Source: Gammaproteobacteria bacterium (GTDB taxonomy: Bacteria > Pseudomonadota > Gammaproteobacteria > Enterobacterales > Alteromonadaceae). From it: a DNA stretch of 64,000 bases. Both the position numbers and the translations under genes were made by a program. Of the stretch, positions 14,370 through 31,885 are shown piece after piece (position 1 is the stretch's first letter; each line of letters begins with the position of its first letter). Where the stretch lies: NCBI GenBank assembly GCA_018222405.1, contig JAAFAI010000001.1, positions 186,001-250,000 of the forward strand, read 5' to 3'. A model generated the notes under the pieces. The model saw only the letters and a list, made by a program, of their open reading frames with translations. It made no database searches and was not told the origin of the DNA.

Positions 14370-15391
14370 CCATACGGACCAATCAATCACACGGAAGCAT
14401 TGTTAAAAGCAGTTTTGTTGCGCCGCGCTGGGCGCGTAACCGGCATATTCAAACTATCTGGCCGCGGTTTATTCAACGCCGTTTACCACTGAAATTCACT
14501 ATGGAGCGCATTAAGCTTGATGACGGTGACTTTCTGGATTTGGCCTGGGGGCCAGCGCCGCAAAAGCTGACCGGGCTGGTGGTGATGTTCCATGGCCTGG
14601 AAGGCTCCATGCATTCCCATTATGCCAACGATATGATGGCCACGCTGAGCCAGGGTGGCTGGCAGGTGGTGATGATGCACTTTCGTGGTTGCAGTGGTGA
14701 AGCCAACTTGACCGCCAGAGCTTACCATTCCGGTGAAACCGGCGATCCGGCATTTATAATAAACCTTTTGCAGCAGCGTTATCCTGACACACCTAAAGCC
14801 GCAATCGGCTTTTCACTGGGCGGTAATATGCTGCTCAAATTGCTCGGTGAACACCCGGACAGTCTGGGGTTAAAGGCGGCGGTAGCGGTGTCGGCGCCGT
14901 TAAAACTCGATGAGTGTGCCACCAGTGTGAATCAGGGCTTTTCCAAGGTGTATCAGAAGTACCTTCTAGGCAGCATGAAGAAGAACCTGTTAAAGAAAAT
15001 GCAGCGCATTGATTACCGCGACATTTTGCAAATCAGCCAAGCTGATGTAGAAGGCATACAAACGTTCTGGCAGTTTGATAACCTGGTCACCGCCCCGCTG
15101 CATGGTTATGCTGATGCTAAAGACTACTACGAGAAGTGCAGCGCTTATTACTTTTTAAAAGCTATTCATTGCCCAACACTTATTTTGCATGCGCTGGACG
15201 ACCCTTTCATGAATCATCTGGTCATCCCGCAGGAGCAGGAACTGGCGCACAGCGTAACCGTAGAGCTGAGTGAAACCGGCGGTCATGTTGGTTTTATGCA
15301 GGGTACACCCACCGCGCCAGATGTGTGGATGCACCAACGCGTGTTGCGATATTTCCGCGACTATTTACCCATAACCACGGAGTCTGCATGA
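14366..15391 (+). CDS. yheT: YheT family alpha/beta hydrolase
   Basis: A 341-residue hydrolase of the YheT/AB-hydrolase-4 family. [16 protein letters not shown] contains the oxyanion-side HGLEGS motif, and GFSLGGN is the nucleophile elbow with the catalytic Ser. [10 protein letters not shown] supplies the likely Asp and TGGHVGFM the His. The opening [18 protein letters not shown] is a family hallmark. No signal peptide is seen, so it is cytoplasmic; the substrate is unknown. It overlaps the upstream gene by 4 bases and yheU downstream by 4 (ATGA). Confidence 0.93.
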
Positions 15392-15618
15392 TTATTCCTA
15401 TCGACGAACTAGCGCCGGATACGCTTCACAATATTGCCCGGGAATTCGTGCTGCGTGAGGGCACCGATTACGGCGAAATTGAGGCGGCATTTGCAGATAA
15501 AGTTGAGCAGGTGATTGCTAAACTTAAAAGCGGTGAAGCGATTTTAGTGTATTCGGAACTGCACGATACCGTAGATATCCGCCCTGTCGATAGCTACCAG
15601 GCTGATAGCGAAGAATAG
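15388..15618 (+). CDS. yheU: YheU family (UPF0270) protein
   Basis: A 76-residue protein: [20 protein letters not shown], then [10 protein letters not shown] and an acidic end, all matching YheU. The start is the ATG at 15388, sharing bases with the yheT stop; the open frame extends further left but only inside yheT. The function is unknown. yheS-yheT-yheU is the conserved gammaproteobacterial order. Confidence 0.92.
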
Positions 15619-15675
15619 GCCATTAATGTAAACGGGCCTGAGAAGCCAAAAATCTTTTCAAAGTATTTCAGAGTG

Positions 15676-15704
15676 TTGACCAATCTTTAAACAGCGCGCA
15701 TGCT
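15676..15704 (+). promoter_or_regulatory. Candidate promoter for the M16 gene pair
   Basis: TTGACC (15676-15681) and CATGCT (15699-15704) are separated by 17 bases, about 85 bases before the start codon. The -10 is weak (3/6). Confidence 0.25.
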
Positions 15705-15789
15705 GGGATTAACATAACACAAACTCTGCGCCGCGTATCGGCGCCGGGTTTATCTAACAACCCTTACTCTAACGACACAAGAGAACATT

Positions 15790-17262
15790 ATGAGAACACT
15801 CTCTGTTATTGCCGCAGGCGTAATGTCTGTCTGGCTGGTCGGCTGCGGTCAACCAGCGCAGACCGATGCACAAAAAAGCAGCGCGGCAGACATGCCGGAT
15901 GCCAAAACCATCGCCGATGCCGCCAGTGGCGTAGACATGAACGTGGGATACAGCGTACCGGTAGAATATTTCAAACTTGATAACGGCCTGAAGGTGGTTT
16001 TATCAAAAGATGAAACCGCCCCCACAGTGACCGTTGCCGTGTACTACAACATCGGGTTTCGAAATGAGCCAAAAGACCGCACCGGCTTTGCGCATTTGTT
16101 TGAGCATATGATGTTTCAGGGCTCTGAAAACCTTGGCAAGATGGAGTTCATTAAATTGGTAAATGACAACGGCGGCGTGCTGAATGGCTCGACCCGTTTT
16201 GACTTCACCAATTATTTTGAGATTGTCCCGGCGCACAAACTGGAAACCTTTTTATGGGCTGAGGCCGATCGCATGAAAGGGCTGGCCATCACGCAGGAAA
16301 ACCTGACTAACCAGCAGGGCGTGGTGAAGAACGAAGTAAAGGTAAATGTGCTAAACCAGCCTTATGGCGGATTCCCCTGGCTGGACATGCCTCAGTATGC
16401 CTTTAATAACTGGTATAACGCGCACAACTTTTACGGTGATTTGGCCGACCTGGACGCAGCCAATCTTGAAGATGTGGCGGGCTTTTTCGACATGTACTAT
16501 GCGCCGAATAATGCTGCGCTCGCTGTGGTAGGCGATATTGATGTGGCCGAAGCAAAAGCCATGATCGAGAAGTATTTTGGTGGCATTCCGGCAGCCGAGA
16601 TTGCGCCGCAGCCGGATTTATCTGAGCTACGTCAGGAAAAAGAAAAGGTCTTTAATAAATACGATAAGCTGGCGCCTAAACCAGCCTATGCCTTTGCCTA
16701 TAAAATGCCGCCAAGGGATACCCCTGAATACTATGCCATGGGCATCATCGACCAGATCCTGGTGCAGGGTGAAGACAGCCTGTTGTATCAGGAGCTGGTA
16801 AAAAATAAACAAATTACCGGCAGTGTGGGTGGAGGAATTAACTACCTGCTTGGCAATATGTTTAACTACAACGGCCCTATGCTGTGGATGAGCTCGTTCA
16901 CCCACGACGACACCGTGAGTCAGGAAACCATTACCTCTGCTATTGATTCTGTGGTTAATAAGTTAGCTGAAAAACCACTCAGCGAAGAAGAGATGTCACG
17001 AGCGATCGTGAAGATCCGTTCCAGTCTGTTCGATTCCATCGATGGATTCTACGGTTTCGGCCGCGCCGACCTGCTGGCCAGTTTTGCGTTGTTTGATGAT
17101 AAACCGCAAAAGATCAATGAACTGGAAGCCAACTTTAAGCAGGTAACCCCAGAGCTTATTATGCAAACGGTGAAAGACTACCTGCGCCCCACCAATCGCA
17201 CCATACTTACCGTTACGCCCGGAGAAGCACCGGCTGACGAAGCACAGGCAGAGGGAGAATAA
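15790..17262 (+). CDS. M16 family zinc metallopeptidase, catalytic subunit, lipoprotein
   Basis: A 490-residue insulinase/pitrilysin-family peptidase. The signal peptide ends in the lipobox LVGC (Cys19), so it is a membrane-anchored periplasmic lipoprotein. The inverted zinc motif HxxEH is present as HLFEH (102-106) in the N-terminal M16 domain. The second, inactive M16 domain follows from about residue 230. It lies 2 bases before a second M16-like gene that lacks the motif. This two-gene arrangement is typical of heterodimeric M16 proteases, in which one chain carries the zinc and the other supports substrate binding. Likely substrates are short peptides. Confidence 0.93.
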   Translation: MRTLSVIAAGVMSVWLVGCGQPAQTDAQKSSAADMPDAKTIADAASGVDMNVGYSVPVEYFKLDNGLKVVLSKDETAPTVTVAVYYNIGFRNEPKDRTGFAHLFEHMMFQGSENLGKMEFIKLVNDNGGVLNGSTRFDFTNYFEIVPAHKLETFLWAEADRMKGLAITQENLTNQQGVVKNEVKVNVLNQPYGGFPWLDMPQYAFNNWYNAHNFYGDLADLDAANLEDVAGFFDMYYAPNNAALAVVGDIDVAEAKAMIEKYFGGIPAAEIAPQPDLSELRQEKEKVFNKYDKLAPKPAYAFAYKMPPRDTPEYYAMGIIDQILVQGEDSLLYQELVKNKQITGSVGGGINYLLGNMFNYNGPMLWMSSFTHDDTVSQETITSAIDSVVNKLAEKPLSEEEMSRAIVKIRSSLFDSIDGFYGFGRADLLASFALFDDKPQKINELEANFKQVTPELIMQTVKDYLRPTNRTILTVTPGEAPADEAQAEGE

Positions 17263-17264
17263 CC

Positions 17265-18650
17265 ATGAAAATAGTCAAAACACTACTGGCTTCCTCGCTT
17301 ATCACGGTGCTGACATTGTCGGTGAACGCTAAGGAAATGCCACCGGCAGGGGGCACTCCAGGCAACTTTACTGTGCCTGCTACACAGGAAATGACTTTGG
17401 ACAATGGCCTGAAAGTGACCTTTATACCTTATGGTAGTACCCCTAAAGCCACTGTCAGGCTGGTTACCAACACCGGTAATATTGATGACGGCGAAAAGGT
17501 CTGGCTAGCCGATCTGAGCTTCGATATGTTGCGCCAGGGAACAGACACCCAGTCCGCCAAAGCATTGGCTGAAGCGGTTGCCAGTATCGGCGGAGAAATT
17601 GCTACCAGCGTAGGTATGGATTCCAGCTTTATTGGCATGGATGTACTTGGCGAATTTACCCCGGACGCGGTGGACGTACTGGCAGACATGGTGATGAACG
17701 CCAGCTTTGCTGAAGCAGACCTGGCGCGGCTTAAAACCGATAGCCAGCGTAACCTCGCAGTGCAGAAATCCAGCCCTTCCGGGATTGCTACCGAGGCTTT
17801 TTACCAGTCAATTTATGGTAACCACCCTTATGGTCGATTATATCCTACCGCCGAGAGTCTGGCGGCGTTAACGGTGGATGATACGAAAACTTTTATTTCG
17901 TCTAACCTTGTGCCGAATCGCAGTCATTTGTATGTGTCTGGCGTGTTTGATCAGGCGGCCGTTAGTAAAGCCGTTAAAGCGGCATTTGCCGACTGGCAGG
18001 CAGGCGAGGCGCGAGCGGCAAAAACGGTGCTTACCAAGCCCGGTCCAACCCTCGAGCTGATTGAGCGAGAAGGCGCACCACAGTCAACGTTGCGCCTGGG
18101 GCTGGCTACGGTAGATGCTACCCATCCGGACTACACCAAACTTAGCGTAATGAACACCCTGCTGGGTGGCGCATTCTCCAGCCGCATTACTACCAACATT
18201 CGTGAAGATAAAGGCTACACCTATTCGCCGCGTTCTGCTGTGGTCGACCGGGTTGGCAGTGCAGTATGGTATGAAGGGGCTGATGTAACCGCCGAAGCCA
18301 CCGGTGCATCCCTGGTCGAAATCTTTAAAGAGATTGAATTGCTGGCCAGCGAAGCCCCCACGGCTGAGGAGCTTAAAGGCGTGCAAAACTACATGGCGGG
18401 TATCTTTGTGTTACGCAATTCTTCGCGAAGCGCGATTATTTCGCAGTTAGCGTTTATAGAGCTGCATGGTCTGGATAAAACATACCTTACCGACTATGTG
18501 CAAAATGTGCATGGTGTGACACCCGAGGAAGTGAGTAATATTGCGAGGAAATACCTGGACAGTGCCAGTATGCACCTGACCATTGTGGGCGATAAGGCAA
18601 CGGTCACGCCACAGTTAAAAGAAGTTAAAGCACTGGAAGCCTATCAGTAG
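17265..18650 (+). CDS. M16 family non-catalytic partner subunit
   Basis: A 461-residue M16-fold protein with a cleavable signal peptide (LLASSLITVLTLSVNA, then KEM). Where the active chain has HxxEH, this one has LADLSFDMLRQGT, so the zinc ligands are lost. The C-terminal domain has the RxxxxYTYSPRSAV-type segment (NIREDKGYTYSPRSAV) that in M16 partners provides substrate-binding Arg/Tyr residues. It is expected to pair with the product of 15790. The gene follows by 2 bases with its own AGGGAG ribosome-binding site and is closed by a terminator at 18680. Confidence 0.92.
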   Translation: MKIVKTLLASSLITVLTLSVNAKEMPPAGGTPGNFTVPATQEMTLDNGLKVTFIPYGSTPKATVRLVTNTGNIDDGEKVWLADLSFDMLRQGTDTQSAKALAEAVASIGGEIATSVGMDSSFIGMDVLGEFTPDAVDVLADMVMNASFAEADLARLKTDSQRNLAVQKSSPSGIATEAFYQSIYGNHPYGRLYPTAESLAALTVDDTKTFISSNLVPNRSHLYVSGVFDQAAVSKAVKAAFADWQAGEARAAKTVLTKPGPTLELIEREGAPQSTLRLGLATVDATHPDYTKLSVMNTLLGGAFSSRITTNIREDKGYTYSPRSAVVDRVGSAVWYEGADVTAEATGASLVEIFKEIELLASEAPTAEELKGVQNYMAGIFVLRNSSRSAIISQLAFIELHGLDKTYLTDYVQNVHGVTPEEVSNIARKYLDSASMHLTIVGDKATVTPQLKEVKALEAYQ

Positions 18651-23350: not shown

Positions 23351-23534
23351 TGGTTAAGGCCGTTATGTTTCTTATTGGTGGTGGTCGTAGTCATTTCCGA
23401 TCTATACCGCGCGACGCTGCGTAAATAACTTGATACTTAAGCACTAATTACGAGTTTAAATAAACAGTGTTCCCAGCATGATGTTTACCCGGAGGTTCAC
23501 TCAGTTCACCCGCTTCAAGATGAATGGAGGCATT

Positions 23535-25022
23535 ATGGAACAGAAGCAGCCTGTTACGCCAACGCTATCGCTCGCACTGACGCCGGTGATATTGACGCTG
23601 ATTATTCTGGGCACACAGATATTCTATTTCGGGGTGTTTGAGCCACATATTCCCCTGGCTATTGGGGTGGCGCTGGCGAGCTTTGTGGGCATTTACCAGG
23701 GGCTCAAGTGGGAAGAAATTCGAGCTGGTATTTTTAAAGTTATCCATGTGGCCCTGCCATCGGTAAGTGTACTGATTGTGGTGGGCATGATCATCGGTAT
23801 ATGGATTGCCAGAGGTACCGTGCCAACCATCATTTATTACGGCTTAAAAACCCTGTCACCCGAGATCTTTCTGGCGGCGGGCATGGTGATATGTGCCGTG
23901 GTTGCCGTGTCCCTTGGTACCAGTTGGGGAAGCGTGGGAACCGTTGGCCTGGCACTGATGGGTATTGGCGATGGGTTTGATATCCCGGTTTACTGGACAG
24001 CTGGGGCGGTAGTGTCTGGTGCATTTTTCGGCGATAAGGTCTCGCCCCTTTCAGACACTACTAACCTCGCACCGGCCGTCACTGGCACCGATGTGTTCTC
24101 TCACATACAAAATATGATGGCGACCACTATTCCTGCCATGGTTATTGCCTTTCTTATTTATATTGGGGTCGGGTATTTTGTTATTGATACCCAAAGTGTT
24201 TCGTTTGAAAAAATCGAAGGGATTACAGCGGCGTTAGAAGATAACTTTTATATCTCTGCCTGGGCCTTACTTCCTGCTTTAGTGGTCATGCTGCTGGCAC
24301 TGAAAAAATTCCCGCCACTGCCTTCACTATTTGCAGGGGTAATTGTGGGCGGCGCGTTTGCCATGGTGACTCAGGGGCAAAGCCTGCAGTCGGTCTTTGA
24401 CTACGCGAATAACGGCTACAGCATTCAAACCAATATCAGCGAGATAGACAACCTGCTCAATCGCGGTGGTATTCAATCCATGATGTGGACCATATCGCTG
24501 GTACTGATTGCCTTAAGCTTTGGCGGTGCACTGGAAACCACGGGCTGTCTGCGAAGTATTATTAATTCCATTAAGAGCAAAGTGAAAACCTTTGCCGGTA
24601 CTCAGGTGGCGTCGGTAGGAACGGCGTTTGCGACCAATCTGGTGGCAGGCGACCCCTATTTATCGGTAGCATTACCAGGTCGGATGTTTTCGCCTGTTTA
24701 TCGCGGCATGGGGTATTCAACGTTAAACCTATCGCGAGGCGTTGAGGAAGGGGGAACTTTAATGTCGCCTCTGATCCCCTGGAATGCCGGTGGCGCGTTT
24801 GTTATCTCAGCGCTTGGTCTGGGCATTGCTGGCGATAGTTTAGAGAACTTACTGTACATCCCTCTGGCCTTCGCCTGCTGGACAGCGCCTTTAATCGGGA
24901 TATTTTATGCTTACCTGGGTTGGTTCTCACCTAAAGCAACAGACGAGGAACGCAAAGAATGGGAATCATCAGGCGCTGACATCGCAAAGTTTAATGACGA
25001 TGGTACGCCAGTGGCGAATTAG
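23535..25022 (+). CDS. nhaC: NhaC family sodium/proton antiporter
   Basis: A 495-residue polytopic inner-membrane protein of the NhaC family, which exchanges external protons for internal sodium. Conserved stretches are GTSWGSVGTVGLALMGIG and GAFFGDKVSPLSDTTNLAP, the charged signature of the family. Later come FATNLVAGDPYLSVALPGRMF and a GGTLMSPLIPWNAGGAF motif. About a dozen hydrophobic helices are spread over the length. The start is ATG 23535, with GGAGG just upstream, rather than the more distal ATG at 23478. Amino-acid exchange variants exist in this family, so the substrate is inferred. Confidence 0.9.
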   Translation: MEQKQPVTPTLSLALTPVILTLIILGTQIFYFGVFEPHIPLAIGVALASFVGIYQGLKWEEIRAGIFKVIHVALPSVSVLIVVGMIIGIWIARGTVPTIIYYGLKTLSPEIFLAAGMVICAVVAVSLGTSWGSVGTVGLALMGIGDGFDIPVYWTAGAVVSGAFFGDKVSPLSDTTNLAPAVTGTDVFSHIQNMMATTIPAMVIAFLIYIGVGYFVIDTQSVSFEKIEGITAALEDNFYISAWALLPALVVMLLALKKFPPLPSLFAGVIVGGAFAMVTQGQSLQSVFDYANNGYSIQTNISEIDNLLNRGGIQSMMWTISLVLIALSFGGALETTGCLRSIINSIKSKVKTFAGTQVASVGTAFATNLVAGDPYLSVALPGRMFSPVYRGMGYSTLNLSRGVEEGGTLMSPLIPWNAGGAFVISALGLGIAGDSLENLLYIPLAFACWTAPLIGIFYAYLGWFSPKATDEERKEWESSGADIAKFNDDGTPVAN

Positions 25023-25350: not shown

Positions 25351-26046
25351 TTATTGGCGAGGTAGGGGTAATAGCCGATTTAACACGCTTTTGAATGACT
25401 TGCCCACTTTAAGTCGTATCTGATTGTTCAGTAACACGGAGTCACTGTCTTTTCCTATTACTGCGTTGTTGCGTACTACAAAGGATTTATGGATTTGGCT
25501 AAAGGCCTGTGCGGGCAGTTCTGCCAGTAGCTTCTTTAAAGTGCTGTTAGCCAGTAGCATGGTATCACCCTGCCACACTTTCACATAGTTGCCATAGGCT
25601 TCCAGATAGGTGATGTCACGCAGGCTTACTTTTCGTAATTCGCGGTCTACTTTAATCACAATCTCTTTGGGTGTGTGTGCTGGTTTGTTAGCCGCGCTTC
25701 GCTGGCGAACCTTATCTAAGGCTGAAGCAAGGCGGGCTTCACTCACGGGCTTCAACAGGTAATCGGTCACATCCAGTTCGAAGCCCTGCAGGGCGAATTC
25801 CTCGTAAGCGCTAACGATAATCACCTGGGGCCGATTAGCCATTACCTTAAGCATATCCATGCCGTTTAGCTGTGGCATATTAATATCGAGGAAGATCAAA
25901 TCGGCGCGGTTAGAGGCTAACCAGGCCAACGCCTCGGTGGCGTTATAGCATTGCTTTACCACTTTTACGTCCCGGTGACTGGCCAGGTGATGCAAAATGA
26001 CTTTATGGGCTAACGGCTCATCATCCACAATCAATGCTTTAAGCAT
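25351..26046 (-). CDS. LytTR-type response regulator
   Basis: A 231-residue regulator. The receiver domain (about 1-118) has the acidic pair VDDEP, the phosphoacceptor Asp in LIFLDINMPQLNG (about residue 54) and the switch Lys in YLLKPVSEARL. The LytTR DNA-binding domain (about 130-228) has REIVIKVDR-like and DITYLEAYGNYVKVW segments, HKSFVVRNNAV and a final LKVGKSFKSVL. It overlaps the upstream histidine kinase by 16 bases and faces the ABC/M1 operon, which is its probable target. Direct repeats in the gap have LytTR spacing. Confidence 0.93.
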   Translation of the reverse strand: MLKALIVDDEPLAHKVILHHLASHRDVKVVKQCYNATEALAWLASNRADLIFLDINMPQLNGMDMLKVMANRPQVIIVSAYEEFALQGFELDVTDYLLKPVSEARLASALDKVRQRSAANKPAHTPKEIVIKVDRELRKVSLRDITYLEAYGNYVKVWQGDTMLLANSTLKKLLAELPAQAFSQIHKSFVVRNNAVIGKDSDSVLLNNQIRLKVGKSFKSVLNRLLPLPRQ

Positions 26047-27530
26047 GGTGCAAGCTCCATCTGCAATCGGGTGTACCAGTGAGTACCGCGCTGTTCGCTA
26101 ATCAGCTCGTGGCGATTAGCGTATTGCAGGCTTAGGCGGCGATGCAGGTTTTCTAGTCCCAGGCCACTGTTGTCTTCATCAACCGGCGCTTGTGTGCTTT
26201 GGCCAATGGGATTTTCACATTCAAATACCAGACGATTCTCATCCAGTGTGAGTGCTAACTTAAGTTCGCAGGGCTTGTCGGCTTTTTCGATGCCATGTTT
26301 AAAGGCATTTTCCAGCACAATGATCAGTAACAGCGGTGGCAGTTGCCAGCGTTCAGCCCGGGTTGGCCAGGTACACTGAAAGTGACAGTCATCGGTATAG
26401 CGCATGGATTGCAGTGCCAGATAGTCCTGTAAATAGCGCACGTCATCGGCCAGGGATACCTGTTCTTTCTGGCCCTGATAAACCGTGTAGCGTAACAGAC
26501 CTGCCAGTTTTTCCACCATGTCAGGAGCCTGTGGTGAACGTTCCAGACACAGCGCATACAAGTTATTCAGGGTATTAAACAAAAAGTGAGGGTTTACCTG
26601 TTGTTGCAGCATTTGCAATTCGGTGCGGGTTTGTCGGCGGGCAATATCCGCTACTCTGGCATCCTGAGACTTGCGTTCAAAAGCCAGAATGATGGGGGTG
26701 CTGAACATTAACAACCAAAAGGTCATTTGACTGTTAAAAGGGTCAAAAGGGTTATGGTTTTCTGACGGGATCAAGGTGAAGTCTGTCACATTATTCAGCG
26801 GCATCAATAACAGCAGCGCGCTTATCGGCGTGCTGAACAGCAGAATAAAGATGAGTCCACCGGCCAGAAAGGGGATTAAACCATGCACCGCTAACAAGCG
26901 GCGAATCAGCACATAACGGTTAAACCAGTATACGCCGAATAGCACCAGCGCCATCAGACTGAATTGCCAGAAATAGTGCATAAACAGCGGCAACTGCTCT
27001 ACGATCAGGTTAAAGTCGATGATCATCTGTAATGGCTGATTGACCATGGGGTTATCGGTGTACAGAAAAACGCCCGCCATGGTAAAGGTCCATAAAAACA
27101 AGCTTAGCGCCACCATGAAGTCCAATGATAACAGGTGCGCAATCCAGCTTCGGGGGCCCTGCTTAACCCGCCCGTAGAAGTGGTGAATAAACCACAGCAC
27201 ACTGGCTATCAAGGCAAACAGGATCCCTTGTATTTCCAGCAACAGCCACTGACCGTAAGCGGGGATCGTATGAGCCAGAATATTGCTTAACAGCGGATAA
27301 CCGATAAACCCGCCTAACCAGATGAGCAGCGCCGGCCTGCCGCAGCGTGTTGAGGCCAGATAATGGCACACAAAAAACGGCAGCATTTCAAGCAATAGTT
27401 GGCCGTGAACCGCCAGATAAGTGGTGGCATCGGGTTGTTGGTAAGAAAGAAAGCGAATCGCGGCTTCCAGCAACAGGGCGGCAAAAATCGGTAGCAGTAC
27501 CAAACTGTTTTTGCGCAAATTAACCACCAT
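26031..27530 (-). CDS. LytS/YehU-type membrane sensor histidine kinase
   Basis: A 499-residue sensor. The N-terminal half holds about seven or eight hydrophobic helices (roughly 5-290). The kinase half carries the His_kinase (LytS) box QQVNPHFLFNTLNNLYALCL with the phosphoacceptor His. The ATPase part has LIIVLENAFKHGIEK (N box) and NSGLGLENLHRRL (G box). I chose ATG 27530; an upstream TTG (27563) lacks a ribosome-binding site. The membrane domain is not one I recognise, so the stimulus is unknown. It is co-transcribed with the LytTR regulator and divergent from the ABC/M1 operon. Confidence 0.9.
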   Translation of the reverse strand: MVVNLRKNSLVLLPIFAALLLEAAIRFLSYQQPDATTYLAVHGQLLLEMLPFFVCHYLASTRCGRPALLIWLGGFIGYPLLSNILAHTIPAYGQWLLLEIQGILFALIASVLWFIHHFYGRVKQGPRSWIAHLLSLDFMVALSLFLWTFTMAGVFLYTDNPMVNQPLQMIIDFNLIVEQLPLFMHYFWQFSLMALVLFGVYWFNRYVLIRRLLAVHGLIPFLAGGLIFILLFSTPISALLLLMPLNNVTDFTLIPSENHNPFDPFNSQMTFWLLMFSTPIILAFERKSQDARVADIARRQTRTELQMLQQQVNPHFLFNTLNNLYALCLERSPQAPDMVEKLAGLLRYTVYQGQKEQVSLADDVRYLQDYLALQSMRYTDDCHFQCTWPTRAERWQLPPLLLIIVLENAFKHGIEKADKPCELKLALTLDENRLVFECENPIGQSTQAPVDEDNSGLGLENLHRRLSLQYANRHELISEQRGTHWYTRLQMELAPCLKH

Positions 27531-27833
27531 GTTGCTGAACCCTTGAATAAATAATGCTGCCAAAGCCTGCCTGAAAGGCGCGGCCTGTACACGTTGTGAA
27601 TGATGAACCTACGCAATTTAATGATGAAAGTAAAACCTGTTGCCGCCGGCATAACGCACTGGCCTTTACCACAGTGGTAAATTCAACGGCTGCAATCCGG
27701 CCCGGCGCTTAACAAAATCACACTATTGCCGTTTGTCATCGCAAACTCATGCTTTGTCATCCCTTGCTGTTTAGCCGTTAATCAGCTTGGTAGGTTAAGG
27801 CTATTCTCGTTTCACATTCAGGATGATGACCAC
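27531..27833. other. Divergent promoter region between the LytS-type kinase and the ABC operon
   Basis: About 300 bases without a supported gene. It should hold the promoters of both operons. The main visible feature is a direct repeat near 27728-27761; a CCACAGTGG hexamer-type palindrome at about 27668-27676 is also present. Confidence 0.6.
27728..27761 (+). promoter_or_regulatory. Candidate LytTR operator (direct repeat)
   Basis: TTTGTCATC occurs at 27732-27740 and 27753-27761, 12 bases apart (21 from start to start). LytTR regulators generally bind two 9-bp direct repeats with about 12 bases between. The left copy also contains CCGTTTGT, close to the described LytTR consensus; the right copy fits less well. 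It lies about 75-105 bases before the ABC start. Confidence 0.4.
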
Positions 27834-28685
27834 ATGCTTACCATGACCGACGTGTCTAAAACCTATTCAGACGGCACCAAAGCGCTGAGTGACATTTCCT
27901 TAACCTTGCCGGCTGGCATGGTAGGCCTTTTAGGCCCCAATGGTGCGGGCAAATCAAGCTTAATGCGCACTCTGGCTTGTTTACAGTCACCAGACAGCGG
28001 GCAGATTAGCTTTAACAATACGGATATTCAGCAATCACCGCAGCGTTTGCGCGAACAGCTTGGCTACTTACCCCAGTCTTTCGGGGTGTATCCACACATT
28101 AGTTGCGTGGCGCTACTTGAGCACATTGCGGCACTTAAAAACATTCCGCGTAAGCAGGTTAAACAGCAAATAGAGGAATTACTAACGCTAACCAATCTGA
28201 CGGCATTTGCCAGTAAGCGCGTAAGCACCTTTTCTGGCGGCATGCGACAACGATTTGGGATTGCTCAGGCGCTGCTGGGCGACCCAAAGTTATTGATCAT
28301 GGATGAGCCCACGGCTGGGCTTGACCCGCAGGAACGTCAGCGATTGCACAGTGTGCTCATTCGACTGAGTCAGAATAAGCTGGTATTGCTTTCTACTCAC
28401 ATCGTGGAAGACATCGAGCACCTGTGTCCTCATGCCGCCATTATGATGCAGGGCGCCATCGTCGACAGTGGCGCTATTCCCGCGCTCATTGCGCCAATGC
28501 AAAACAACGTCTGGGAAACGTCAGCAAAACCCGCAGAAGGCATATTGTTGGGTGAGCGTTATCACTTCGGCCAGCCGGTATGGCGGGTGTTCCACCACGA
28601 GCCGCCCGGCGCTGATGCCGTAGCCTGCCGGGCAACCTTGCAGGACCGCTACTTTCTTGAACTGGCCAGGCGGGAGGCGAACTGA
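27834..28685 (+). CDS. ABC transporter ATP-binding protein
   Basis: A 283-residue ABC ATPase. Walker A is GPNGAGKSS, the Q-loop GYLPQSFGVYPHI, the signature FSGGMRQRFGIAQ, Walker B LLIMDEPTAGLDP and the switch His LLSTHIVEDIE. The C-terminal 60 residues are less conserved. The start is ATG 27834; the frame runs on upstream but those residues are not ABC-like. The permease gene starts within its stop codon (TGATG), so the two are coupled. The cargo is unknown. Confidence 0.93.
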   Translation: MLTMTDVSKTYSDGTKALSDISLTLPAGMVGLLGPNGAGKSSLMRTLACLQSPDSGQISFNNTDIQQSPQRLREQLGYLPQSFGVYPHISCVALLEHIAALKNIPRKQVKQQIEELLTLTNLTAFASKRVSTFSGGMRQRFGIAQALLGDPKLLIMDEPTAGLDPQERQRLHSVLIRLSQNKLVLLSTHIVEDIEHLCPHAAIMMQGAIVDSGAIPALIAPMQNNVWETSAKPAEGILLGERYHFGQPVWRVFHHEPPGADAVACRATLQDRYFLELARREAN

Positions 28686-31600
28686 TGCTTCTCGCTAATG
28701 AATGGCGTTTATATGTGCGCCAGCCTCTGGTGTGGTTATGCGCACTGGGTCTCCCCGGATTGTCAGTATTGTTGGTGCAGGGCCTGACAGTTGCCGATTT
28801 ACAGTTGGCAAAACGCCTTACCATGCTAAATATTACGGTGGTCATGCTGGCACTGCCTGTGGTGGTGGCTGCGTTAACGCCTCCATTACTGCAGCGTGAC
28901 AGGCTCCACAATATGCAGGAGCTCGTTGGTGCGGCCAGAACGAGTCAGTTTACCCGACGGCTCAACCGGTTTGTGGCTTTTTTGAGTCTGGTGGCGCTGA
29001 TCTGTTTATGCGGCTCGGTGCTGCAGCTATTGATGCTCAGTCAGCATCCGCTATTCGATGCCGGTATTATTCACACTGCGCTGAAAAACGGTTTGTTTAT
29101 AGTAGCCCCGGCGTGCTTTTTGTATTGCGCAGCCGCGTTACTGATTGCTCAGCGGGTCAATAGTGCGCTGCCGGTGTATGCCTTTTTTGCGCTGGTATGG
29201 ATAGGTTATGTGATGCTGGCGTCCGTGACCGGCTCGCCTGTGCTGGCCGGTAGCAGCATTATCCACCCATCGCTTTACGAGGCCATGCTGGTGGCTGACC
29301 CTTTGGGCTTTACGGCGATTTTTGCCCAGCTCACGGGTGATCAGACAGACTGGTCAGCAAACCCAAGCATTGCTCTTAATCGTCTGGCCTGGTTGGCGCT
29401 TAGCGTAGTACTGGTGTGGTTAGCGTTGAACGCCCGAAGTGTGTTACATGAAAACTCTAAACGCGCATCATGGTGGCGTTTGAGAAAAGCTGCACCGCTG
29501 CCTGATAGCCAGATTAAAATGCCTGCGGCCATTACTCATCATCCCTTTGCCGCCTTGCTCGTGAGCGCGATCAAAGTGCTACTGCTTAATCGGGTAATGC
29601 TATTAGTGCTGGCGCTATACGCTGGCGCGATTTTCTCTGAAGTATTGGCCGCTATTGATTATGCCGAACCCCATTCAGTTCTCACGCCGCTGAGTATTGA
29701 TGCGCTGAATCGCGTTGTGTGGGATATGTTACCCTTTGCCGGGTGCGTACTCATGGCGCTCTGGAGCTGGCAACTGGGCTGGCAAAATCAGCGTGACGGT
29801 GCCGCAGAAATGATCGCCGCTACGCCAGCAACTAACGTTCAGTTGGTCATGTCTCAGGCCGGTGCGTTGTTCTTCGCCGGTCTTGTGCTGTTGGGTATAA
29901 CAGCTATTGCCGTTGTGGTTGCCCAGTTACTTGCGGGCAGCCAGATAGAAGCGGCTACCTATGCCCGTATGCTTACAATGACCGGCCTGCCTGTATTACT
30001 GTTTGGCTGGCTTTGTCTGGCACTTCATCATGTGATGCGTAGTGCGTTGATGGCGGGGGGGCTGTGTCTGCTGTTGCTGATTGTTAAGTTCACGCCGTTA
30101 CTTTCCCTGGCCGGTATTTCTCACCCGTTGCTGGATATCGCCGGTACACCTTTACAGCCTGCCGACTATTTAATTGGTTTCTCCCGCAGTGAACATACCT
30201 TTTGGCCATACCTTATTTTGTGGTCGGTAGTAGTGGTTTCTGCGCTGGTGCTGACAGTAAACAAAACCCACCGCGGGGCAGGGTTTGAATTGCGGTCCTG
30301 GCGAACCTTGTCTCACTCCGGCTGGCTTGCTGTTGGCGCGTTAGTAGTGGTGCTAGCGGGCTTTCATCTGGCTCTGCAGCAGGAACGCCCTTACATGACG
30401 CCCGACGCCCGATATGCCCTGCGTGCCGACTACGAAAAGCAGTATGGCCAATGGGAGGAGCGGGCTCAGCCGGTTGTTACGCACATTGATGCGCTGGTGG
30501 ATTTTTTTCCGGAGAAGCGCCAGGCCTCGCTTAAACTTACACTGCACCTAAAAAACCTCAGTGGTGAGGCGATTAATGACGTGTTAGTGGGCAGTTATCC
30601 CGGCTTTAAACCCGAAGTGCTAACGCTCAGCGGTGGGCAACTAACGTCTCAGAACGAGCGGTTACAGCAGTTTGTGTATGAACTGGACTCGCCATTACTG
30701 CCCGGCCAGATGCTGACCTTACAGGCAGAAATGGTGGTAAACGGCGCGCGCAGATGGTTACCTTCAGGGCATCAAATTCTGTTACCTGAATTCAGTTATT
30801 TACGCGGTATTCCATTGCTACCTAATATTGGTTTTAACCGGCAGTACACGCTACGTGATGAAGTGCTCAGGGAAGAGTTTGGCTTAGCGGCTCTGGATAT
30901 GCCGTTACCCAGTACCTTTGCTGATGCGGCCCCGGCCACAACATTGCAATCGACTCCGGTTACCTTTCACAGTGTTGTTTCGTCGCCAGTTTCGCATGCC
31001 GTGCATTCTCAGGGACAAATCGTTAACCAGTGGCTGGCTGCTGGTCGTCGCTACTCGGAATTTGCAACCGCTGAACCTGTTCGAAATATCCCGGTCTGGC
31101 TGGCTACAATGCAAACCAGTACCATCCATAGTGTGACGGCGGGTGAGCACTCTGTGGATATCAATCTGATCGGCTTGACCCGCGGTCTTACGAGTGGCTC
31201 ACAGGCCAGCGCTCAGCAAGTGCATTTACAGGCAGTTAGCGACACCCTTGAATGGTTTTCGGCTCAGCTTACGCCTTATCCTTACAAGCAGCTGTCCTTG
31301 CTGTTTACGCCGGAATTCGGTCCCAGCGGTTATGCGCTGCCACAGGTGATTTTAATGTCGCATCGCCTGGCGGTTCGGGCGCGCCCTGCTGACGATGCTG
31401 GTTTCGATAAACGCTACCGGCGCACGGCGCATGAGGTTGCCCATCAGTGGTTTGGGCATCAGATTGGCTATGGCGTCGAAGCAGACGGCTCCTTTTTAAT
31501 TGAATCGCTGGCGAAATACGCCGAGCTGGTGCTGATTGAGCAGCGCTTTGGTAAAGAGGCAATGCAATCGCTGGTGGACTATGAGCGGCAGCGCTATCAG

Positions 31601-31885
31601 CACGCTTTGCGGGGCAGGCTAACTGCCACCAGAGCCATTATTGATGCCACCAGTTCGCCGGATGTGTATGCCAGAGCAACGCTGGTGTTTGCCAGGCTGC
31701 GAGAGCTGGTGGGCGACGAACCTATTGTTAGTGTATTGAAACGATTACTGGAGCAAAATGCTCCGGGTCAAAAAAGCGCAACCTCGATGGATTTTGTTAC
31801 CCGGCTGCTGGCTTCAACTGACGCGCAGTATCACGACGAAATAAAGCAACTGCTGCTAGGGCGAGAGGTTAAGGGGTTACTGTAG
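28685..31885 (+). CDS. ABC-2 type permease fused to an M1 aminopeptidase domain
   Basis: A 1066-residue protein. The first half (about 1-570) is an ABC permease with about twelve hydrophobic helices, probably two six-helix units. A large C-terminal domain (about 600-1066) follows. It contains an M1-family zinc centre: HEVAH at 916-920 and the third ligand Glu at 940 (IESLAKYAELV). The usual GAMEN exopeptidase motif is not seen; the equivalent region reads GPSGYALPQVI, as in other members of this fused subfamily. The peptidase should face the periplasm. It forms one transporter with the ATPase before it, and may cleave peptides linked to transport. The function is unproven. A terminator follows. 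Confidence 0.9.
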   Translation: MLLANEWRLYVRQPLVWLCALGLPGLSVLLVQGLTVADLQLAKRLTMLNITVVMLALPVVVAALTPPLLQRDRLHNMQELVGAARTSQFTRRLNRFVAFLSLVALICLCGSVLQLLMLSQHPLFDAGIIHTALKNGLFIVAPACFLYCAAALLIAQRVNSALPVYAFFALVWIGYVMLASVTGSPVLAGSSIIHPSLYEAMLVADPLGFTAIFAQLTGDQTDWSANPSIALNRLAWLALSVVLVWLALNARSVLHENSKRASWWRLRKAAPLPDSQIKMPAAITHHPFAALLVSAIKVLLLNRVMLLVLALYAGAIFSEVLAAIDYAEPHSVLTPLSIDALNRVVWDMLPFAGCVLMALWSWQLGWQNQRDGAAEMIAATPATNVQLVMSQAGALFFAGLVLLGITAIAVVVAQLLAGSQIEAATYARMLTMTGLPVLLFGWLCLALHHVMRSALMAGGLCLLLLIVKFTPLLSLAGISHPLLDIAGTPLQPADYLIGFSRSEHTFWPYLILWSVVVVSALVLTVNKTHRGAGFELRSWRTLSHSGWLAVGALVVVLAGFHLALQQERPYMTPDARYALRADYEKQYGQWEERAQPVVTHIDALVDFFPEKRQASLKLTLHLKNLSGEAINDVLVGSYPGFKPEVLTLSGGQLTSQNERLQQFVYELDSPLLPGQMLTLQAEMVVNGARRWLPSGHQILLPEFSYLRGIPLLPNIGFNRQYTLRDEVLREEFGLAALDMPLPSTFADAAPATTLQSTPVTFHSVVSSPVSHAVHSQGQIVNQWLAAGRRYSEFATAEPVRNIPVWLATMQTSTIHSVTAGEHSVDINLIGLTRGLTSGSQASAQQVHLQAVSDTLEWFSAQLTPYPYKQLSLLFTPEFGPSGYALPQVILMSHRLAVRARPADDAGFDKRYRRTAHEVAHQWFGHQIGYGVEADGSFLIESLAKYAELVLIEQRFGKEAMQSLVDYERQRYQHALRGRLTATRAIIDATSSPDVYARATLVFARLRELVGDEPIVSVLKRLLEQNAPGQKSATSMDFVTRLLASTDAQYHDEIKQLLLGREVKGLL

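Follow-up and report, generated by a model that had tools for sequence, protein, structure and literature searches.

The window considered here is a stretch of 64,000 nucleotides from a bacterium of the Alteromonadaceae (assembly GCA_018222405.1, contig JAAFAI010000001.1, positions 186,001 to 250,000). It contains a cassette of four genes in which a LytTR two-component pair is divergent from an ATP-binding cassette (ABC) transporter whose permease is fused to an M1-fold peptidase. This arrangement had been proposed at 26031-31885 in an earlier note made from the letters of the window. All four genes were found to be real and to lie at or near those coordinates, the regulator gene (25351-26046) falling outside them, and the proposed order, with the permease coupled to its ATPase and opposed to a kinase with its LytTR regulator, was borne out. 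The nearest named relatives at the locus were of the genus Alteromonas (A. oceani and A. alba). The genes and putative operators are as follows.

25351-26046, minus strand: LytTR response regulator, 231 residues (Pfam Response_reg, 78.7 bits; LytTR, 44.8 bits)
26031-27530, minus strand: sensor histidine kinase, 499 residues from its likely ATG (Pfam PF06580, 90.5 bits)
27600-27628, minus strand: putative operator facing the kinase gene, TTCATCAT-N13-TTCATCAT (direct repeats of 21-bp period)
27732-27760, plus strand: putative operator facing the ABC genes, TTTGTCAT-N13-TTTGTCAT (direct repeats of 21-bp period)
27834-28685, plus strand: ABC ATPase, 283 residues, with the start at 27834 right (Pfam ABC_tran, 113 bits)
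28685-31885, plus strand: permease fused to an M1-fold peptidase, 1066 residues (sequence and structure model)

The kinase reading frame is open as far as a TTG at 27563, and the ATG at 27530 was taken as the likelier start because relatives begin there. The kinase and regulator genes overlap by 16 nt, the ATPase stop codon and the permease start codon share 1 nt, and a divergent intergenic gap of 303 bp separates the kinase and ATPase genes. The regulator is composed of a receiver and a C-terminal LytTR domain; D54 of the receiver (in LDINMP) was read off the sequence and is presumably the phospho-acceptor, as in receivers generally. The ATPase motifs are intact (Walker A, FSGG signature, Walker B with its Glu, and switch His). 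Random adjacency of LytTR genes was ruled out, as only 4 LytTR domains were detected in the whole genome (4.96 Mb).

A putative paired-repeat operator and a fifth gene

What is new at this locus is the putative paired-repeat operator and the fifth component that it appears to mark. The divergent region contains paired direct repeats of the pattern TTYRTCAT-N13-TTYRTCAT, one pair facing each gene, at 73 bp (27732-27760) and 69 bp (27600-27628) upstream of the start codon. With one mismatch or none, this pattern matched the window twice compared to 0.06 expected, and both matches were exact. A sigma-70 consensus scan of 27480-27880 found neither promoter nor terminator.

Repeats of the same period were common in the intergenic regions between kinase and ABC genes of related loci. 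By a count of 9-mers repeated with at most one mismatch, 44 of 76 regions had repeats at the 21-bp period compared to 2.65 expected, and other spacings from 12 to 39 bp gave 0 to 8 regions (8 at 33 bp, compared to 3.0 expected); exact 8-mers at the 21-bp period numbered 22 compared to 0.4 expected. The 76 regions exclude near-duplicate rows and contain close relatives; among 48 representatives less than 70% identical, 25 had repeats at 21 bp compared to 1 to 4 at eight other spacings recounted. Twelve tree rows with the kinase-regulator pair had no region, mainly through the Walker-A pattern used. When a seed was scored instead (at least 13 of 16), pairs were detected facing the ABC genes in 61 regions, facing the kinase in 64 and on both sides in 55 (shuffle expectation 2.4, 1.8 and 0.0); these seeded counts are partly circular because the seed came from the same regions, and the 9-mer count used no seed. 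Shuffles were first-order random sequences, in 20 rounds for the seedless and 10 rounds for the seeded count. Among Pseudomonadota loci the operator was found on either strand in 62 of 63 and on both in 52. With a loose score applied to 63 regions, the 21-bp spacing gave 55 and 59 and other spacings at most 25 (at 18 bp), with 24 and 22 at 24 bp. Only 4 and 4 of 53 regions taken as pair-free passed this score, 2 of them on both strands (L074 and L196); the contig of L074 ends before any pair, and L196 actually has one.

The layout of the repeats fits LytTR sites in general, which an excerpt of PMC4847170 describes as two repeats of 9-11 nt, 11-13 nt apart. Moreover, the first half of the 27732-27760 operator overlaps CCGTTTGTC, a half-site equal to the published AlgR site algD-RB3 as given in an excerpt of PMC4064291. 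The cassette is like the LytTR systems AlgZR and YpdAB in its LytTR regulator, PF06580 kinase and two-repeat site layout, to the extent that these excerpts describe them; unlike those systems, its sensor part has no known sensor domain (29 members) and occurs only with one ABC/M1 cassette in 60 genomes. With four conserved genes and a LytTR-like putative operator before both transcription units, the suggestion of the earlier note that the set forms one regulated unit is upheld to the extent that the genes are apparently co-regulated.

In the whole genome the operator pattern had three exact matches, two of them at the cassette and the third upstream of a distant gene. A tolerance of one mismatch raised the number to 11, compared to 5 for the reversed pattern, and single-mismatch sites therefore mean little; a stricter pattern behaved alike in 12 carrier genomes. 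The third exact match is on another contig, 31 bp before a gene of 357 residues that is referred to here as the fifth gene. Its product has a hydrophobic, signal-like N-terminus by eye and is probably secreted. Likeness to tetratricopeptide repeats (TPR) is weak, being below the Pfam cut-off in this genome and just above it in one relative (L106).

Relatives of the fifth gene adjoin the cassette in 7 loci. They stand behind the permease in L106 and L108 (41-42% identical) and behind the regulator in L107 and L110 (44% and 39%), and distant relatives (27-29%) stand behind the permease in L068, L083, L107, L110 and L111. L107 and L110 thus each have two different family members at opposite ends of the cassette, behind the regulator and behind the permease. 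Six of eight loci examined were clear, detached homologues (that of this genome included), and all six had the operator upstream in the right orientation, with scores of 16, 16, 16, 16, 16 and 14 at 31-76 bp before the open reading frame. As for the other two, L246 is the cassette-linked gene of L106, and L247 is a distant homologue with no such upstream site. Thus, operator and neighbourhood point to the same gene, which would make it an extra, optional component.

Fold and active site of the fused protein and the kinase sensor part

The full-length permease-peptidase was modelled with 65 sequences at a mean predicted local distance difference test (pLDDT) of 88.8 and a predicted template modelling score (pTM) of 0.85; residues 1-596 folded separately gave a mean pLDDT of 87.7. 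The following parts were distinguished.

28685-30268, plus strand: two fused six-helix ABC-2 half-permeases, residues 1-528 (separate model and structural alignment)
30314-30385, plus strand: thirteenth helix, residues 544-567 (model; hydropathy 2.13, with a positive loop before it)
30410-31882, plus strand: two-domain M1 fold (beta and catalytic domain), residues 576-1066, predicted periplasmic (model)
31325-31339, plus strand: place of the GAMEN motif, residues 881-885 (SGYAL), motif lost (alignment to ERAP2)
31430-31504, plus strand: zinc site of H916, E917, H920 (HEVAH) and E940 (conservation)
31667-31669, plus strand: Y995, putative catalytic Tyr (conservation)

Residues 1-534 aligned with the chain of a mycobacterial efflux pump (Z 19.5, root-mean-square deviation (rmsd) 4.1, 451 residues), and the membrane part was also structurally alike to ABCA and ABCG lipid or drug exporters. 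Each membrane half matched a chain of NosDFY entries (Z 20.0, rmsd 3.3, 232 aligned; Z 19.1, rmsd 3.2, 231 aligned), and we infer these chains to be NosY. A six-helix bundle in each half, together with an ABC ATPase, marks the transporter as an ABC-2 exporter on structure (Z 19-20). In sequence, Pfam gave no match for the membrane part of the window protein (ABC2_membrane_4 was detected in 23 of 56 members), and a search of solved structures with this part returned nothing at E 10. Two six-helix bundles in one chain are likewise found in the single-chain exporters (mycobacterial pump 8k1m-8k1p and ABCA; NosFY by halves), from which the present protein differs by its thirteenth helix and predicted periplasmic M1 domain. 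Model and hydropathy agree on a topology of 12+1 helices with positive cytoplasmic loops. The thirteenth helix leads out of the cytoplasm after a positive loop, and the peptidase domain should therefore be periplasmic, as the earlier note had expected.

The M1 part aligned with M1 peptidases, with Z 28.1 (rmsd 3.4, 405 aligned) to aminopeptidase N and Z 27.3 (rmsd 3.2, 396 aligned) to a two-domain M1 of Deinococcus, and the Peptidase_M1 profile scored 44.6 bits on the window protein (cut-off 27.7). The length of 1066 residues, the HEVAH motif and a Glu 20 residues on had been read correctly from the sequence (H916-E917-V-A-H920 and E940). The spacing is HEXXH-X19-E and differs from the canonical X18; X19 was found in 87 of 93 proteins (window and near-duplicates taken in), the pattern being unmatched in 6. 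E940 aligns with the third zinc ligand of ERAP2, and Y995 is presumably the catalytic Tyr of M1 enzymes.

H916, E917, H920, E940 and Y995 were present together in 132 of 135 relatives (68/70 from the motif scan; 20/20 and 44/45 from whole-protein or profile searches), with identities to the window protein down to about 20%. The exceptions were L066, L094 and L220. L066 and L094, which are Colwellia-type and short-form with the pair present, have His in place of the catalytic Tyr, and L094 also has Asn in place of the first zinc His. Since AHQWFGH was one of the two search motifs for the motif-found loci, conservation of A919-H925 is biased in those loci; among the 65 proteins from whole-protein or profile searches H925 was not universal (34/45 in the Bacteroidota set).

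By contrast to the zinc site, the GAMEN motif is lost. The position of its Glu is occupied by A (86), S (44), N (2), V, L or T in the 135 relatives and by Glu in none, and Glu in neighbouring columns was seen in three (L072, L076 and L133). An excerpt of PMC10343166 proposes that the GAMEN Glu meets the amino end of substrates. A plain aminopeptidase is therefore unlikely, and the domain would instead be an active zinc peptidase of another kind. Endopeptidase activity is known for the M1 enzymes AplP and NosP, of which NosP keeps GAMEN (excerpt of PMC13039773). Compared to PepN, ERAP2 and the Deinococcus two-domain M1, the domain shares fold, HEXXH, Glu and Tyr (Z 25.6-28.1 over about 400 residues among the matches listed) and differs in X19, the loss of GAMEN, the permease fusion, and its end at residue 1066 with none of the further C-terminal domains of longer enzymes.

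The kinase has 7-8 hydrophobic segments (hydropathy, counted by eye) followed by a His_kinase domain with the H-box NPHFLFN. An alignment of 29 members (window and 28 relatives) revealed two conserved loops, NQPL..ID and PSxNxNxF, which are probably periplasmic. The earlier label of a LytS-type kinase holds for the kinase domain, as PF06580 was recognized in 29/29 members, and does not hold for the sensor part; known sensor domains, including the LytS-type sensor domain 5TM-5TMR_LYT, were found in none of the 29 at E 0.1.

Distribution of the cassette and its LytTR association

The fusion was found in two forms, a short form as in the window and a longer form of about 1180-1290 residues in gammaproteobacteria. 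The long form shares domain order and zinc site with the window protein, at an identity of about 24-26%. The short form occurred in 7 of 60 related genomes (G000, G016, G023, G025, G028, G029 and G034) and the longer form in several, with one copy in this genome too (L048). The kinase sensor part, searched alone in the same 60 genomes, was detected in exactly the seven short-form carriers, with one match each at the cassette (Fisher 2.6e-9, uncorrected for kinship). Distance matrices over 67 loci, with their own list of dropped rows, correlated at 0.955 for permease-kinase and 0.944 for permease-ATPase, figures in which shared species history is still contained. At E 1e-20 the fused class was detected in 10 of the 369 gammaproteobacterial genomes sampled and in 49 of the 198 from Bacteroidota.

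A scan of named genomes with two motifs found 156 loci, the best 80 of which ranged from Alteromonas, Rheinheimera, Pseudoalteromonas, Paraglaciecola, Bowmanella, Microbulbifer, Novosphingobium and Erythrobacter to Bacteroidota. A window-like kinase and regulator were present in 74 of these 80; of the six others, three (L057, L074, L092) break off near the gene and three (L106, L108, L120) are without the pair. The bin from which L108 comes, JAACSL01, has a different contig with a full cassette (L089).

The short-form clade in a tree of 136 fusions comprised 64 rows, and 61 of them had the pair adjacent to the fusion. With L056, whose pair is in the locus and displaced by an insertion, the number is 62, although the 6.5-kb rule of the tree scored this row as pair-free; in L040:1417-5943, which is from the genome region of L056, the kinase is split from the ABC genes by a TonB-dependent receptor, an M48 peptidase and a DUF898 protein. 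The pair was also present in all rows of a separate 13-row Bacteroidota set, whose placement as sister of the short-form clade was considered and is not shown by the tree. The pair label changed 9 times on the tree compared to 42.7 in shuffles. Elsewhere it was missing from 20/20 long-form gammaproteobacterial loci and present in 14/44 profile-found Bacteroidota loci. Thus, the expectation that homologues are associated with LytTR genes holds for the short-form clade, at 61 (62 with L056) of 64, and fails for the family at large, and the pair was rejected as a mark of the whole fusion family because the long form lacks it. Very different kinases could have been missed in these counts because the pair-finding profiles were built from relatives of the window.

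The tree was built with FastTree, with long branches flagged and a midpoint root only. Near-duplicates (L038-L042, L054, L055) and truncated, split or repeated sequences (L057, L064, L074, L092, L095, L102, L126, L128, L138, L151, L152, L204) were dropped beforehand, L204 lying at a contig end; 45 Bacteroidota loci were fetched from among the matches.

Proposed function and alternative explanations

The gene set, the folds, their conservation, the operator and the fifth gene have an in silico basis, and together they make a real, conserved, dedicated unit built from known parts. We propose that it acts as a self-contained, signal-controlled export-and-cleave unit with operator control of the distant fifth gene, a joint reading that we regard as having an even chance of being right. 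The membrane kinase would detect a signal in or outside the inner membrane and phosphorylate the LytTR regulator, which would bind the paired repeats of 21-bp period upstream of both divergent units. The regulator would thereby control the operon that encodes it, that of the ABC genes and, in this genome, the distant gene for the weakly TPR-like, probably secreted protein; this control is expected to be induction. Two copies of the ATPase would drive the single-chain, two-halved ABC-2 permease, which would expel or extract a hydrophobic or amphipathic substrate, most likely peptides, and the tethered periplasmic zinc peptidase would cleave it, probably not as a classical aminopeptidase. The path from signal through kinase and regulator to both promoters is suggested by sequence evidence, and export with cleavage outside by the predicted fold; the substrate, its cleavage and the role of the fifth protein are what we infer for this mechanism. 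Peptides appear the likeliest substrate because the peptidase site is preserved, and lipids or drugs may serve instead. Recurring neighbours other than the fifth-gene family (clusters in at least 5 loci) were mostly confined to one genus; a co-encoded biosynthetic cluster was rejected, as no other neighbour recurs across distant genera, which favours a substrate that is generic or external over a product encoded with the cassette.

Several results weigh against this proposal. The fifth gene was detected in only 2 of the 7 short-form carriers of the 60-genome sample (and in no other genome there) and in 6 of 20 other carrier genomes, although the distant type could be missed at the cut-offs used. 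L106 and L108 are short-form loci with neither pair nor operator that nevertheless carry the fifth gene, and L066 and L094 keep the pair yet lose catalytic residues, which implies that the unit can sometimes do without catalysis. All 135 relatives lack the Glu that holds a free N-terminus. Operators in Bacteroidota are weak (either strand 8/13, both 3/13), with none in L082.

The cassette might instead encode a controlled efflux pump for lipids or drugs, similar to ABCA, ABCG or the mycobacterial pump, with an M1 domain whose main task is to process envelope proteins or that serves as a lid. Over its whole length the membrane part can be aligned with the mycobacterial pump chain, and it also aligns with ABCA and ABCG exporters; however, similarity of fold does not give the substrate, and a complete zinc-peptidase site in 132/135 relatives at identities down to about 20% is hard to explain for a lid. 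We consider this explanation rather unlikely.

In BceAB-type modules, a permease of FtsX fold takes part in flux sensing, and the BceS kinases have only two transmembrane helices. If the transporter here likewise formed part of the sensor, so that the kinase monitored the state of the permease and the M1 domain bound a peptide signal, this would account for the strict association of a single kinase sensor part with a single fusion clade and for a permease-kinase correlation as high as that of permease and ATPase. The kinase, by contrast to two-helix BceS, has its own membrane sensor of 7-8 segments with conserved loops, and the catalytic residues are kept. We consider sensing by flux unlikely. 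No FtsX-fold permease was among the structural matches listed for the membrane part, a listing that does not exclude this fold.

A reading of the M1 domain as a module for binding or docking that has lost catalysis is one that the loss of GAMEN in all relatives and of zinc-site or Tyr residues in 3/135 would favour, yet it is quite improbable given the full five-residue set in the other 132. Inherited neighbourhood with no function behind gene proximity and repeats, to which related loci and Fisher and matrix figures uncorrected for kinship might point, is highly improbable, as the 21-bp enrichment persists in the 48 representatives, the repeats face both genes, and they mark a gene elsewhere in the genome whose relatives adjoin the cassette in other species.

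The export-and-cleave unit may be compared to other transporters with associated peptidases or LytTR genes. In NatKR-NatAB of Bacillus, a LytTR pair controls a neighbouring ABC-2 exporter that is not known to have a fused peptidase; the present cassette is alike in placing a LytTR pair beside an ABC-2 exporter and unlike in its fused peptidase. The C39 domain is a cysteine-type, cytosolic peptidase. ABC transporters that carry it also join a peptidase to an exporter, with C39 at the N-terminus (excerpt of PMC13039773), as opposed to the C-terminal, zinc-type and predicted periplasmic peptidase of the present fusion. No functional work on the ABC/M1 fusion was seen in the titles and abstract openings of the open-licence PubMed Central papers listed by searches aimed at it.

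The predicted operator makes the cassette testable as a unit, predicts which promoters respond, leads along two lines of evidence to the fifth component and provides a reporter for signal screening. The claim of the earlier note that the set could sense, cleave or export peptides survives only within the evenly balanced export-and-cleave proposal. If true, a GAMEN-less M1 enzyme tethered to a pump would widen what the M1 family does. A bolder version, which we find doubtful, is a five-part periplasmic machine for peptide surveillance common to Alteromonadales and Sphingomonadales, with looser kin in Bacteroidota: kinase, ABC-2 exporter with a GAMEN-less endo- or other non-aminopeptidase M1 domain, and secreted partner would be under one LytTR operator, and cleavage products or the state of the pump would feed back on the kinase.

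Other genes were observed beside the cassette or the fusion. A gene of the Na+/H+ antiporter family (23478-25022) borders the cassette in the window and in two close relatives, with no sign of membership. In the close relative L039 (10286-15738), an M20 peptidase, an AraC regulator and a TonB-dependent receptor, which are not in the window, lie downstream of the permease. The long-form fusion of this genome (L048:5074-10540) follows a class II glutamine amidotransferase gene; in L049, L143 and L144, too, a protein that begins in the same way precedes the fusion. L094 has a second such kinase/regulator pair (14991-17275), about 4 kb downstream of its permease.

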